In this document: in pieces, positions 56,819-61,480 of the stretch
Layout of the letters: each line of letters begins with the position of its first letter
Numbering within the stretch: the first letter of the stretch is position 1
From: a virus
Direction: 5' to 3' (one strand)
Virus record (IMG/VR): IMGVR_UViG_3300029787_000023
Coordinates: 1 to 64,000 of that record
Length of the DNA stretch: 64,000 nt
The notes under the pieces: model-generated
Told to the model about the DNA's origin: nothing
Databases searched by the model: none
Seen by the model: only the letters and a program-made list of their open reading frames with translations
Made by a program: the position numbers and the translations under genes

Positions 56819-57006
56819 TGCCGATCTACGAGTACCAGTGCCCCGTCTGTAAGAAGAAGCGAGAGATGCTTCAACGCATGAGCGACGCAAAGGCTCCTGT
56901 GTGTGAGCCCTGCGCCAAGAAGATGACGCGGCTGATCTCAAGCACCAGCTTCTCTCTGAAGGGCGACGGTTGGTACAAGGACGGCTACGGGCTCAGGAGC
57001 GAATGA
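56818..57006 (+). CDS. FmdB-like zinc-ribbon protein, 62 aa
   Basis: Starts MPIYEYQCPVCKKKREMLQR, the hallmark of FmdB/Zinc_ribbon_8 proteins. CPVC and CEPC supply the zinc ligands. The end reads SFSLKGDGWYKDGYGLR, a C-terminal pattern also seen in FmdB proteins. In phages such proteins often sit beside 7-deazaguanine genes, as here before DpdA. The precise role is unknown. It overlaps the DpdA start by four bases. Confidence 0.75.
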   Translation: MPIYEYQCPVCKKKREMLQRMSDAKAPVCEPCAKKMTRLISSTSFSLKGDGWYKDGYGLRSE

Positions 57007-58271
57007 ACTACACCTACTTCGCAAGCGGGGCAACGATGGCAGTGGATCTACTGGGATTCGCTGACATCGATCACCCGGCAGGCATCACCGTCGACATCAT
57101 GAACGAAGAGTCCCACGCAGCCGTGCTGTCACTGGCAGGTACGGGGCTCAAGATATTCATCGACTCGGGTGCCTTCAGCGAAGTCAAGGTAAATCGAAGA
57201 GGTCAGATCAAAGTCGTCCGTCCTATCGACGAGGCTGAGTGGCGCAGACGCATCGGTGTATATCGAGACCTGGCAAAGAGACTCAAGTCTCAGCTCTACG
57301 TCGTTGCCCCCGATCGTGTGGGCAGTCAGAAGGAAACGATGCAGAGGTTGGTGCGCCACCTTGATGAGCTCAGAGAAGTGAGCGAGGAGGGAGCCAACAT
57401 CTTGGTGCCCCTGCACCTGGGCGAGATGACACAGATAGAGATGCACCATGCCGTATCGAGAATGATGGAAGGTATGAACTGGATGCCTGCACTACCGTGT
57501 AAGAAGGCAGCGACCAGTGCGGAAGAGATCCTCGAGTACTGCGATGTGATGAGGCCGAACCGTGTCCACCTGCTCGGCGCTGGTCCCAAGAGCGAGGTAG
57601 CCTTTCAAGTGCTGGACATCATCTGCACCCAGACCGATGTCTATATGGACAGCTGCTGCCTTCGCTCGAACTCAGGTTTGACGAATGGTAGAGGGGGCGG
57701 TCCTCGAGTGCTGACCATTGCCAAGGCACTGACCGATGCCGCGGGGTATCAGTTCGGAGAAGCGCGCAGACTCTCGATCTCGATGACGTTCCAGCAAGAC
57801 ACCGAGTTGATGTGGCGCTACCAGACGGGTGCTGTGAAGTGCCCTGACGGATCGGTCATAGGCAGTGCGTACTGTGTGCTCGGCTTGTCGAGATACCTTG
57901 CCGTCGCCATAGACGACGCTGAAGCCATTGAAGAGTACTTGGGCGACCCACCGACAGGGAATCTCTACGTAGGGCTCTGGGACTTAGATACGGCTGAGCT
58001 ACTGGGTCTGGCGGAGTTCGACGCTGAACACCCATTCACGCTTCACCTTAGCTGTGATCTCCCTGAAGTCGTCGAGTTCTGGTTTCTGGCCCAGTGCTTC
58101 AGACAAGTTCAGTTCAAGCTACCCCATAGAAGAGTCGCCTTGATCATCGCACCCAGGATAAAGAGCGCGATTAAATACCGGAAGTCTTGTTTGGCCATAG
58201 AACCTTGTGGAGCTGAACCTGCATCCGAGCCAGCACCTTGTCCTGGAGCATCCACTCAGCCAGGTCTTTAG
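57003..58271 (+). CDS. dpdA: DpdA-type DNA transglycosylase with fused partial Mom-like domain, 422 aa
   Basis: Start set at the ATG at 57003, with AGGAG upstream. The frame extends back to 56970. DpdA enzymes exchange guanine in DNA for preQ0. Residues 1-245 show the TGT-like barrel: KIFIDSGAFSE (catalytic Asp), VVAPDRVGSQ, VPLHLGEM, MPALPCKKAATS, VHLLGAGPK and YMDSCCLRSNSG. After a linker, residues about 320-393 read LYVGLWDLDTAELLGLAEF and later EFWFLAQCFRQV, matching the Mom-like protein at 60698-61480 (RVGLWKLDGPELVGVAVF and ETWFLAQCFRVV). The GNAT piece lacks the middle ELNRLVILD stretch and everything after the next strand, so it is probably inactive as an acetyltransferase. The last 34 residues are antisense to QueE. 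Confidence 0.8.
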   Translation: MNYTYFASGATMAVDLLGFADIDHPAGITVDIMNEESHAAVLSLAGTGLKIFIDSGAFSEVKVNRRGQIKVVRPIDEAEWRRRIGVYRDLAKRLKSQLYVVAPDRVGSQKETMQRLVRHLDELREVSEEGANILVPLHLGEMTQIEMHHAVSRMMEGMNWMPALPCKKAATSAEEILEYCDVMRPNRVHLLGAGPKSEVAFQVLDIICTQTDVYMDSCCLRSNSGLTNGRGGGPRVLTIAKALTDAAGYQFGEARRLSISMTFQQDTELMWRYQTGAVKCPDGSVIGSAYCVLGLSRYLAVAIDDAEAIEEYLGDPPTGNLYVGLWDLDTAELLGLAEFDAEHPFTLHLSCDLPEVVEFWFLAQCFRQVQFKLPHRRVALIIAPRIKSAIKYRKSCLAIEPCGAEPASEPAPCPGASTQPGL

Positions 58272-58812
58272 GATCCAGCACGCCCCACACCGGAGACAGC
58301 AGGTAGTTTGCGTTGTGCTTACTCATAACTTCGAGCGCCCAGTCATAGTCCTGCCGGGAGCCGATCACGATCTTGACCTCGTCACCCTCGCCAAGCAGTT
58401 CGATATTCGACCACAAGTTCTTGGCTGATTCGCCTGAGCTCGGTGCCTTCAAGTCCATGATCGTGCTGACACTCAGCGGTACTTCGGCCACGCTGATCGA
58501 GCCCGACGTCTCAAGTAAGACCTCGTAGCCTTCATCGAGGAGCGTCTGCATCAGAGTCATGCACTCCTTCTGAGCCAAGGGTTCACCCCCTGTGACTTGC
58601 ACTAAGGGTATCTCCAGTTCGTCGACCTTCGATATGATCTGCTCGATCGACATCCAGTCCCCGCCGCTGAAGGTGTACTCAGAGTCGCACCACGTGCAGC
58701 GTAGGTTGCAGCCTGTCAGACGCACAAAGGCGCAGAGACGGCCAGCATGAGTGCTCTCTCCCTGCACCGACGCATAGATCTCTGTGACCTTCAGGCGAGG
58801 CAACTGTTGCAC
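58171..58812 (-). CDS. queE: 7-carboxy-7-deazaguanine synthase QueE, 213 aa
   Basis: Radical SAM enzyme that converts 6-carboxytetrahydropterin to carboxydeazaguanine. The cluster-binding motif is GCNLRCTWCDSEYTF (C-x3-C-x2-C). YASVQGEST at the N-terminus and VQVTGGEPL (SAM contact) are typical. Length is slightly short but normal for phage enzymes. The listed start is a GTG at 58812 touching GGGGA. A TTG at 58803, eight bases from the same site, may be the real start. It overlaps the QueC end by 22 bases, and its 3' end overlaps the convergent DpdA gene by 101 bases. Confidence 0.9.
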   Translation of the reverse strand: MQQLPRLKVTEIYASVQGESTHAGRLCAFVRLTGCNLRCTWCDSEYTFSGGDWMSIEQIISKVDELEIPLVQVTGGEPLAQKECMTLMQTLLDEGYEVLLETSGSISVAEVPLSVSTIMDLKAPSSGESAKNLWSNIELLGEGDEVKIVIGSRQDYDWALEVMSKHNANYLLSPVWGVLDPKDLAEWMLQDKVLARMQVQLHKVLWPNKTSGI

Positions 58813-59354
58813 TCCCCGCAGGGCTCACCGTCTCGGGGCTCGTAGCAAGACCACCAACCATCGAGTTCGATACTTGCGGCTTCATCCTTGATCTCTTGCT
58901 TCGTCATGTTGATCAAGGGGGCCTCGACACTGACACCCCAGTCCGACGCCAGCGTGTCCTGTAGGTCGATCCAATCAGGCCGACAGTCTGGGTAGTCTGC
59001 GTTGTCTCCGAGATTGGCTCCGTACCACACAGCCTCGGCCCCGATCGAAGAAGCGACGTTGACACCGAAGGCGATCATCACTTGGTTACGAGCTGCAAGT
59101 ACTCGAGGACCAGGCGTACCTACACCAAGGTTCATTGTGTCTGTGCCCCACAGAGGTAGGCTCATCTCGATGCTTCTGATCGAGTGACCATCCTTGTGCT
59201 TCTGCTGCAACCACTTGCTCACAGCTTCAGACTCTTGGGGCGCTGCGGGATGAGCGTAGCGAAAGAACAGGACAGCCAGCTCCTTACCCTCACGGAGCGC
59301 ACGTTCCGCAAGAAGCATGGAGTCGAGTCCTCCTGAGAAGAGGAGTAAGATCAT
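58791..59354 (-). CDS. queC: 7-cyano-7-deazaguanine synthase QueC, 187 aa
   Basis: ATP-dependent PP-loop enzyme that makes preQ0 from carboxydeazaguanine. The PP-loop is LLLFSGGLDSM at the N-terminus. GPRVLAARNQVMIAFGVNVA and WYGANLGDNADYPDCRPDW are family hallmarks. The zinc ligands CYEPRDGEPCGECNSC end the protein. It is shorter than bacterial QueC (about 230) but keeps all motifs. Its start overlaps the upstream gene stop (ATGA). It supplies the base that DpdA would insert into phage DNA. Confidence 0.92.
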   Translation of the reverse strand: MILLLFSGGLDSMLLAERALREGKELAVLFFRYAHPAAPQESEAVSKWLQQKHKDGHSIRSIEMSLPLWGTDTMNLGVGTPGPRVLAARNQVMIAFGVNVASSIGAEAVWYGANLGDNADYPDCRPDWIDLQDTLASDWGVSVEAPLINMTKQEIKDEAASIELDGWWSCYEPRDGEPCGECNSCLA

Positions 59355-59758
59355 CCGTCGATCAATGCCTCAAGCAGATCGACCGCGCTCTTGCGTGTCT
59401 TGCCTGCCTTCTCAGCCGCCAGCAATGCCGCAGCATAGGCGCTGTAGTCGTTGTCTGCGAGAGCCTTGCGTAGATTGCGCACAGACATATCGAGTAGGTC
59501 CATGACTTCAGCCGGTACCTCGACAGCCGCGGGCTCTTCGACGGGGGGAGACTCGTCTACGACGGTGGCTCCCAGCCTCTCTGTCAACTCCGCAAGGTAG
59601 TGGAACGAGCCATACACGCGAGCGAATCCCTGCCCACTACGCATGCTCTCTGTGATCTCAAGATGCTCGATCTCGATGTACTGACGGATCGGGTTGTAGG
59701 CGCGGTTCCAGCGAGTTCGGGTATCGGGGCCGCTGAACTTGAGACTAATGGAAAGCAT
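59351..59758 (-). CDS. Hypothetical 135-aa protein upstream of queC
   Basis: AAGGAGG lies before the ATG at 59758. The first 60 residues (MLSISLKFSGPDTRTRWNRA, then QYIEIEHLEI) form a beta-alpha pattern. A Pro/Glu/Val-rich linker and a C-terminal helical domain (VRNLRKALADNDYSAYAAAL) follow. It is not QueD: the His-rich zinc site of that enzyme is absent. Coupling to queC suggests a linked but unknown role. Confidence 0.6.
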   Translation of the reverse strand: MLSISLKFSGPDTRTRWNRAYNPIRQYIEIEHLEITESMRSGQGFARVYGSFHYLAELTERLGATVVDESPPVEEPAAVEVPAEVMDLLDMSVRNLRKALADNDYSAYAAALLAAEKAGKTRKSAVDLLEALIDG

Positions 59759-60438: not shown

Positions 60439-60698
60439 GCTTCCTCCCTTACTACCTGCGCCAGCGGGTTCATAGTCATGTGATTGAGACTGCGGTAGAC
60501 ATCGGCAAAGACCTCGTTGAAGGCTTGAGTCGCCTGCTCAGGGTCCATGCCGTTGACGATGCAGAGAGTAGCCAAGCAGAGCATGATCTCGCCTGGGGTG
60601 CGCTCGTCGTCGACGTGACCCTCGACCAGTTCGTACAAGGCACGACGAAACTCGAGTGGTGGGTCGACACGTTGTGCGGCGGGTAGTTTAGCGGACAT
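60435..60698 (-). CDS. Hypothetical 87-aa protein
   Basis: All-helical by appearance: FRRALYELVEGHVDDERTPG and GEIMLCLATLCIVNGMDPEQ, then NEVFADVYRSLNHMT. No domain was recognised. Start and Mom-like stop overlap (TAATG), so it is in the same transcript as the modification gene. Confidence 0.5.
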   Translation of the reverse strand: MSAKLPAAQRVDPPLEFRRALYELVEGHVDDERTPGEIMLCLATLCIVNGMDPEQATQAFNEVFADVYRSLNHMTMNPLAQVVREEA

Positions 60699-61480
60699 TA
60701 TAGTTCTCCCTTTGGGTATGGTAGGTTTGCCTTGAATCGGCGAGTGGTTTGTTTCTTCTGTCTCTTGTTTCCAAGAGCCCAGACGTAGGCATGATTGCCT
60801 GGATGTGATTGCTTTCTCAGTAGGCCCAGGTCGATGACTCGATCGATCCAGTCGGCCGCTTCCTCGCCAGGTTCACGAAGCGGAGCCCCGATGTCGACGA
60901 GCTGACGTTCGACGTAGAACCTGCCGCGCTCTCCGTTGCGGAGTTTGTTGAGCGTGCGTCGGTAGAAGGTCTGACCCTGCGGTCCGATGTAGGTGATCTT
61001 CGATGTGCTCTTACCCACATAGATGCCGTTGTGTGCCTGGTAGATCGTGCCCAGATGACCAGGCATGAAAACCGAACCGTCAGGTCTTTCGCGGGGAATG
61101 GGGTCGCTGAAGGACAGGATGAAGCGTACGTCGGGAAGTCGCTGCTCGACCACTCGGAAGCACTGAGCCAGGAACCACGTCTCCGCATTGGAGGCGACCT
61201 CGTCGAGAATGACGAGCCTGTTCAACTCGACACCTTCATGTTGGTCGGCACCGTCCACGTAGCGGGCGAAGGTCAGCGGGTGGGCAGGCACACCGAAGAC
61301 GGCGACCCCTACTAACTCGGGACCGTCCAGCTTCCACAAGCCGACACGAATCCGCGCAGCAGGGTAGCTGCCACTGTAGTGGTGCTCGGTGATGAACTCC
61401 TTGGCGACCTTGTCAGAGTCGATGGGGATCACCACGTACTTTGACGTGTCAATAACTTTGTCTGGCTTGTGTCTGGACAT
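60698..61480 (-). CDS. Mom-like GNAT DNA-modification protein, 260 aa
   Basis: Mom of phage Mu transfers a modifying group to DNA adenines using an acetyl-CoA-type fold. This protein shows the pattern I recall for phage Mom-family proteins: HHYSGSYPAARIRVGLW (about residues 34-50), ELVGVAVFGVPAHPLTF, VELNRLVILDEVASNAETWF, RFILSFSDPIPR, PGHLGTIYQAHNG and a C-terminal KLRNGERGRFYVERQL. AGGAGA precedes the ATG. The promoter has an operator over its -35 box. It is the first gene of a leftward transcript. Whether its target is adenine or the 7-deazaguanine base cannot be told. Confidence 0.8.
   Translation of the reverse strand: MSRHKPDKVIDTSKYVVIPIDSDKVAKEFITEHHYSGSYPAARIRVGLWKLDGPELVGVAVFGVPAHPLTFARYVDGADQHEGVELNRLVILDEVASNAETWFLAQCFRVVEQRLPDVRFILSFSDPIPRERPDGSVFMPGHLGTIYQAHNGIYVGKSTSKITYIGPQGQTFYRRTLNKLRNGERGRFYVERQLVDIGAPLREPGEEAADWIDRVIDLGLLRKQSHPGNHAYVWALGNKRQKKQTTRRFKANLPYPKGEL

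Follow-up and report, generated by a model that had tools for sequence, protein, structure and literature searches.

Why should the gene for an enzyme that exchanges bases in DNA end in what appears to be half of a second modification enzyme, Mom? The base that Mom enzymes modify is adenine; for DpdA, the base exchanged is guanine. The question is raised by an open reading frame (ORF) of 422 residues in the window, by which we mean the whole stretch of 64,000 nucleotides analyzed here, taken from a 70,214-base virus record (IMGVR_UViG_3300029787_000023). Based on its sequence, the ORF very probably consists of a DpdA-like core followed by a tail that is a truncated paralog of Mom (Table 1). 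Our most likely reading, to which we give a probability of about 0.5, is that the tail has an accessory role, stabilizing or docking the core.

Layout of the fused gene and its neighbors

The ORF and its translation were confirmed as given in the initial annotation. The alignment to Mom starts at tail residue 292, which pairs with Mom residue 9, and by extrapolation the start methionine of Mom would align with residue 284 of the fused protein. No convincing ribosome site was seen for an internal start at Met270, from which the tail might have been translated independently. Residues 381-422 are probably unstructured, based on the model. About 32 codons at the extreme end (residues 391-422) run antisense to the terminal (3') part of queE, a gene that is convergent with the fused ORF and overlaps its 3' end by 101 nt, and the C-terminal end differs in the relative described below, whose protein has 435 residues versus 422. 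Upstream, the stop codon of the zinc-ribbon gene overlaps the dpdA start (ATGA).

Two genes for preQ0 synthesis, queC and queE, lie next to the fused ORF; folE and queD had no match anywhere in the virus record. The core most likely inserts 7-deazaguanine (preQ0) into DNA, with QueC and QueE presumably helping to make preQ0. The intact Mom (260 residues) is encoded 2.4 kb from the fused ORF and is likely the source paralog of the tail. Close to where the virus record ends on the right, L010 (10517-11158, minus strand) encodes a GP88-family protein (PF17338, 3.5e-30).

Table 1. Coordinates of the fused ORF, its predicted parts and neighboring genes in the window.
Feature	Position	Strand	Basis
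Zinc-ribbon gene, 62 aa	56818..57006	+	PF09723 1.6e-11
Fused ORF, 422 aa	57003-58271	+	ORF and translation
DpdA/TGT-like core, residues 1 to ~283	57003..57851	+	39% identity to L037; invariant columns of 18 relatives; hhalign
Junction, residues 284-291	57852..57875	+	Ends of phage relatives and start of Mom alignment
Probable Mom-derived half-GNAT segment, residues 292-380	57876..58142	+	Match to window Mom, tree, tail model
C-terminal end, residues 381-422 and stop	58143..58271	+	pLDDT mostly <50
queE-like radical SAM gene	58171..58812	-	PHROG 2076 3.4e-34; TIGR04349 278.9 bits, under cut-off of 300
queC	58791..59354	-	PF06508 8.2e-30
Gene for 135-aa protein, beside queC	59351-59758	-	No family match
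Intact Mom	60698-61480	-	PF25680 5.2e-31; Mu Mom 8bv8 E 1.9e-10

The core resembles DpdA and other TGT-type enzymes

Assignment of the core as DpdA/TGT-like is supported by profile comparisons. Although it has no direct sequence match to phage DpdA, a profile of the core family is related to ten phage DpdA proteins (hhalign probability 96.7, E 4.6e-10), and 13 of 18 members of the family matched PHROG 887 (DpdA; best 5e-8), the window sequence itself giving no match. These relatives were gathered by a pattern scan with FIDSGAFS, followed by further scans, in phage, Pseudomonas and other genomes. All 18 share D54-S-G-A-F, P103-D104, H189, L191-G192 and D216; D54, D104 and D216 are invariant, and we take these three to correspond to the TGT catalytic residues. 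The window protein has D54-S-G-A-F, P103-D104, H138 within PLHLGE, H189-L-L-G and D216-S. Its PLHLGE stands where most core relatives have PLQxG; CAjan DpdA has CFHFGE. A conserved histidine at position 196 of DpdA is lost in DpdA2 (PMC6884629), and our guess is that it occupies the same position as the histidine of PLHLGE.

PF01702, the Pfam TGT family, had no match in the virus record; the DpdA proteins of CAjan and Dp-1 likewise lack a Pfam match, and therefore PF01702 does not define phage DpdA. Against Pfam, PHROG and NCBIfam, the window protein gave DUF6610 at 0.009, below the cut-off, plus weak chance matches. Only chance matches were obtained when the core was used in a profile search of the PDB or, with tblastn, as query for 50,697 phage records.

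DpdA-like cores were also seen within very long phage proteins of 1,300 to 2,600 aa (L034, L049, L050, L054, L055 and L057). Other core homologs are stand-alone or LPD1-associated proteins of Pseudomonas and other genomes (L039-L047) and of large plasmids (H32-H61; the plasmid relatives were found with L037 as query), nearly all annotated as hypothetical. The fused ORF adds relatives to this divergent branch of DpdA-like proteins.

The tail is a diverged copy of Mom

The resemblance of the C-terminal part to the Mom-like protein encoded nearby, noted in the initial annotation, is confirmed by comparison of the two sequences. BLASTP aligned tail residues 292-380 with Mom residues 9-122 (58.9 bits, E 2e-14, 39/114 identical), and the shared VGLW, HP and WFLAQCFR matches proved real. 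Comparison with shuffled sequences had been proposed as a test that could refute the relationship: the Smith-Waterman score of the tail against the window Mom was 141, while 1000 shuffles had a mean of 29.2 (sd 4.5) and a maximum of 49 (Z = 25). When 258 open frames of the window (at least 80 aa) were scored against the tail, only Mom stood above background (the next score was 44). Together with the profile match of the core, these results uphold the description of the ORF as DpdA fused to a truncated Mom copy.

Moms of other viruses scored at or near shuffle level against the tail (Z 4.2, 0.4, 0.2 and -0.3), whereas the window Mom scored 103-207 against the same proteins. In a small tree the tail paired with the window Mom (support 100/99), with a branch of 1.8 for the tail versus zero for Mom. 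The simplest reading of these data is that the tail is a fast-diverged duplicate of the phage's own Mom, a lineage-specific paralog; it could instead have been copied from a close relative of the window Mom.

A different origin would make the tail an ancient part of the DpdA family to which the core belongs, merely GNAT- or Mom-like in appearance. Lengths do vary among the DpdA proteins compared (240-376 aa), as such a domain might lead one to expect. However, none of the relatives carries the tail, those from phages end before it (in L037 and L052 the protein finishes around residues 270-283, where it would begin), and its clear match is to the window Mom alone, making this origin highly unlikely.

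Mom motifs are absent from the tail

The window Mom keeps all four of the motifs that can be aligned with Mu Mom (H-Y-S, E-L-N-R, S-F-x-D and Y-Q-A-x-N), reading HYS, ELNR, SFSD and YQAHN, versus none of the four in the tail. There, one deletion covers FITEHH, the region of the HHY motif, and another of about 18 residues reaches into ELNR; the tail reads IIAPR where Mom has SFSDP, ends before YQA and lacks a counterpart to the last 138 residues of Mom (123-260). It was not recognized by the Mom profile PF25680. The initial annotation was thus correct that the ELNR region is missing, but FITEHH is lost as well and the absent C-terminus amounts to 138 of 260 residues, not a third. Nor did it mention that the Mom-like protein is encoded on the minus strand. 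Because the four motifs and these last 138 residues are absent, we expect that acyltransferase activity has almost certainly been lost from the tail.

It is conceivable that the protein is bifunctional, the tail still moving an acyl group onto adenine or onto the exchanged base. The homology of the tail to Mom and the occurrence of GNAT-TGT fusions in BREX-related capture (BRC) systems would fit such an activity, but with the motifs and C-terminal half gone and an intact Mom encoded close by, we consider it very improbable. The proposal that both enzymes act, or once acted, on the same modified base likewise finds no support, given their different target bases and the lack of Mom motifs in the tail.

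A structure prediction had also been suggested as a test of the GNAT fold. The tail model has pLDDT values mostly of 74-91 over residues 293-380 and is disordered from about residue 384. It shows the expected GNAT strand order (b1-a1-b2-b3-b4-a3); the model was built with Mom rows in the alignment and hence is not independent evidence of this fold. Foldseek gave no significant match to the model (best E 0.23 in the PDB and 7e-3 among viral models), although the weak matches include some GNATs. For the full-length protein, AlphaFold run on an alignment of three near-identical rows gave a pLDDT of 33 and that model was set aside; a joint alignment of core and Mom sequences placed the Moms wrongly on the core and was left unfolded.

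The fusion occurs in two distinct viruses

Since the record is derived from a metagenome, an assembly chimera of two genes had to be considered. The same fused ORF is present in IMGVR_UViG_3300030090_005675 (97% protein identity over 422 residues), where the same junction is found but the adjoining queE differs by 25-30%. The two viruses are distinct, based on the fact that about 35% of synonymous sites differ in three upstream genes. With the tail also found in this second, diverged contig, the sequences indicate that the fusion is real; a chimera is extremely improbable. In a third contig, residues 1-272 were matched at 90% before the contig ends.

When the two viruses were compared (window against L001), nucleotide identity was 93-100% in the block between roughly 56.4 and 58.2 kb, which includes the zinc-ribbon gene and dpdA, and 0.70-0.75 inside queE. 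The high identity of this block between diverged flanks suggests that the dpdA block was recently exchanged between viruses.

No Mom tail was found on the core relatives from phages and Pseudomonas genomes, where these were translated. Pattern searches with WFLAQCF (among true relatives) and VGLWDLD returned only the already-known contig, VGLWKLDG gave chance matches only, and so did the tail against phage and plasmid records. In the collections searched, the sequences place the fusion in a single lineage.

Selection and the possible role of the tail

Between the two viruses, the core (residues 1-272) has 20 synonymous changes and one nonsynonymous change, versus three and four, respectively, in the tail (residues 291-380, with 208 nonsynonymous sites). 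Constraint is weaker in the tail than in the core (Fisher p = 0.008, for one sequence pair). The four nonsynonymous tail changes compare with about 25 expected at the synonymous rate of the core (P 2e-7) and about 10 at the tail's own rate (P 0.02), an estimate from a single pair with few changes in which the local synonymous divergence of the tail is low (3 changes). Five differences fall within residues 281-380: one at junction residue 287, two in a loop beside the gap (314 and 315) and the conservative changes I309L and K372R. The changes in the tail spare the predicted core of the fold. This pattern suggests that selection continues to act on the tail, though with less stringency than on the core, and we lean toward it retaining a weak function.

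The main alternative is that the tail is a vestige. Loss of a stop codon, or recombination, would have linked dpdA with a residual piece of Mom, which subsequent trimming shortened on the queE side and which is merely tolerated, with selection acting only against misfolding. The loss of every Mom motif, the antisense C-terminus that differs between relatives and the far weaker constraint on the tail are all consistent with this explanation; however, both contigs that extend into the tail keep an open frame there, and nonsynonymous changes are below the neutral expectation. We give it a substantial, though less than even, chance.

In the accessory reading, which we prefer, the Mom gene would have been duplicated in this phage lineage, and an in-frame fusion would have placed the copy behind a base-exchange gene of the DpdA/TGT type. 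Rapid divergence of the copy, with loss of the catalytic segments and of the C-terminal half, would have left the half-GNAT remnant, which most likely now stabilizes DpdA or docks it to DNA, to intact Mom or to some other partner. Capture of a Mom duplicate as a docking or binding part, as raised in the initial annotation, is thus possible in view of the packing segments that are kept and the signs of selection. A more specific version, in which the tail serves as a tether that holds the guanine-exchange enzyme at the DNA sites of Mom or on intact Mom itself, and thereby couples two hypermodifications of different bases in one machine, is speculative and rather unlikely.

If the tail works, a DNA-modifying enzyme has recruited the dead half of a second, unrelated one from the same genome, and coupling of guanine and adenine hypermodification becomes testable. 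If it is a vestige, the locus clearly captures a moment in the fusion and decay of genes within a cluster of phage modification functions.

Comparison with known systems

Mom-derived, catalytically dead halves fused to DpdA were not found in reports in the open-licence literature searched. The initial annotation knew of no described case, but GNAT domains "occasionally fused with TGT" were reported in 2026 in BRC defense systems (PMC12839542), where they are not described as Mom-derived. What would be new here is that the GNAT part comes from the phage's own Mom, as a half copy that is no longer active; GNAT-TGT fusions and phages with dual modification were already known. Under either reading, the ORF is an example from a phage to set beside the GNAT-TGT associations that were reported recently.

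The phage DpdA proteins of CAjan and 9g (PMC6884629) are TGT-type enzymes that share with the window core the FxDSGAFS, aspartate-G, HxGE and DS motifs as well as adjacent queC and queE genes. Unlike the window protein, CAjan DpdA ends at 306 aa and has no GNAT tail. Homologs of the core from plasmids and Pseudomonas, some annotated as LPD1-domain proteins, belong to the same core family, and those translated have no Mom tail. The intact window Mom, paralog of the tail, matches Mu Mom (8bv8) and PF25680, whereas the tail has neither the motifs nor the profile match. Mom proteins of jumbo phages are typically fused to nucleases, and the jumbo phage PA5oct has five Mom enzymes along with a deazaguanine system (PMC7824862), thereby having, like the window phage, both modification types within one phage. 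BRC systems resemble the fused ORF in having a GNAT and a TGT/DpdA-like enzyme in a single polypeptide or locus, but they are cellular defense loci for which Mom is unmentioned and no dead half copy of a paralog is described (PMC12839542).
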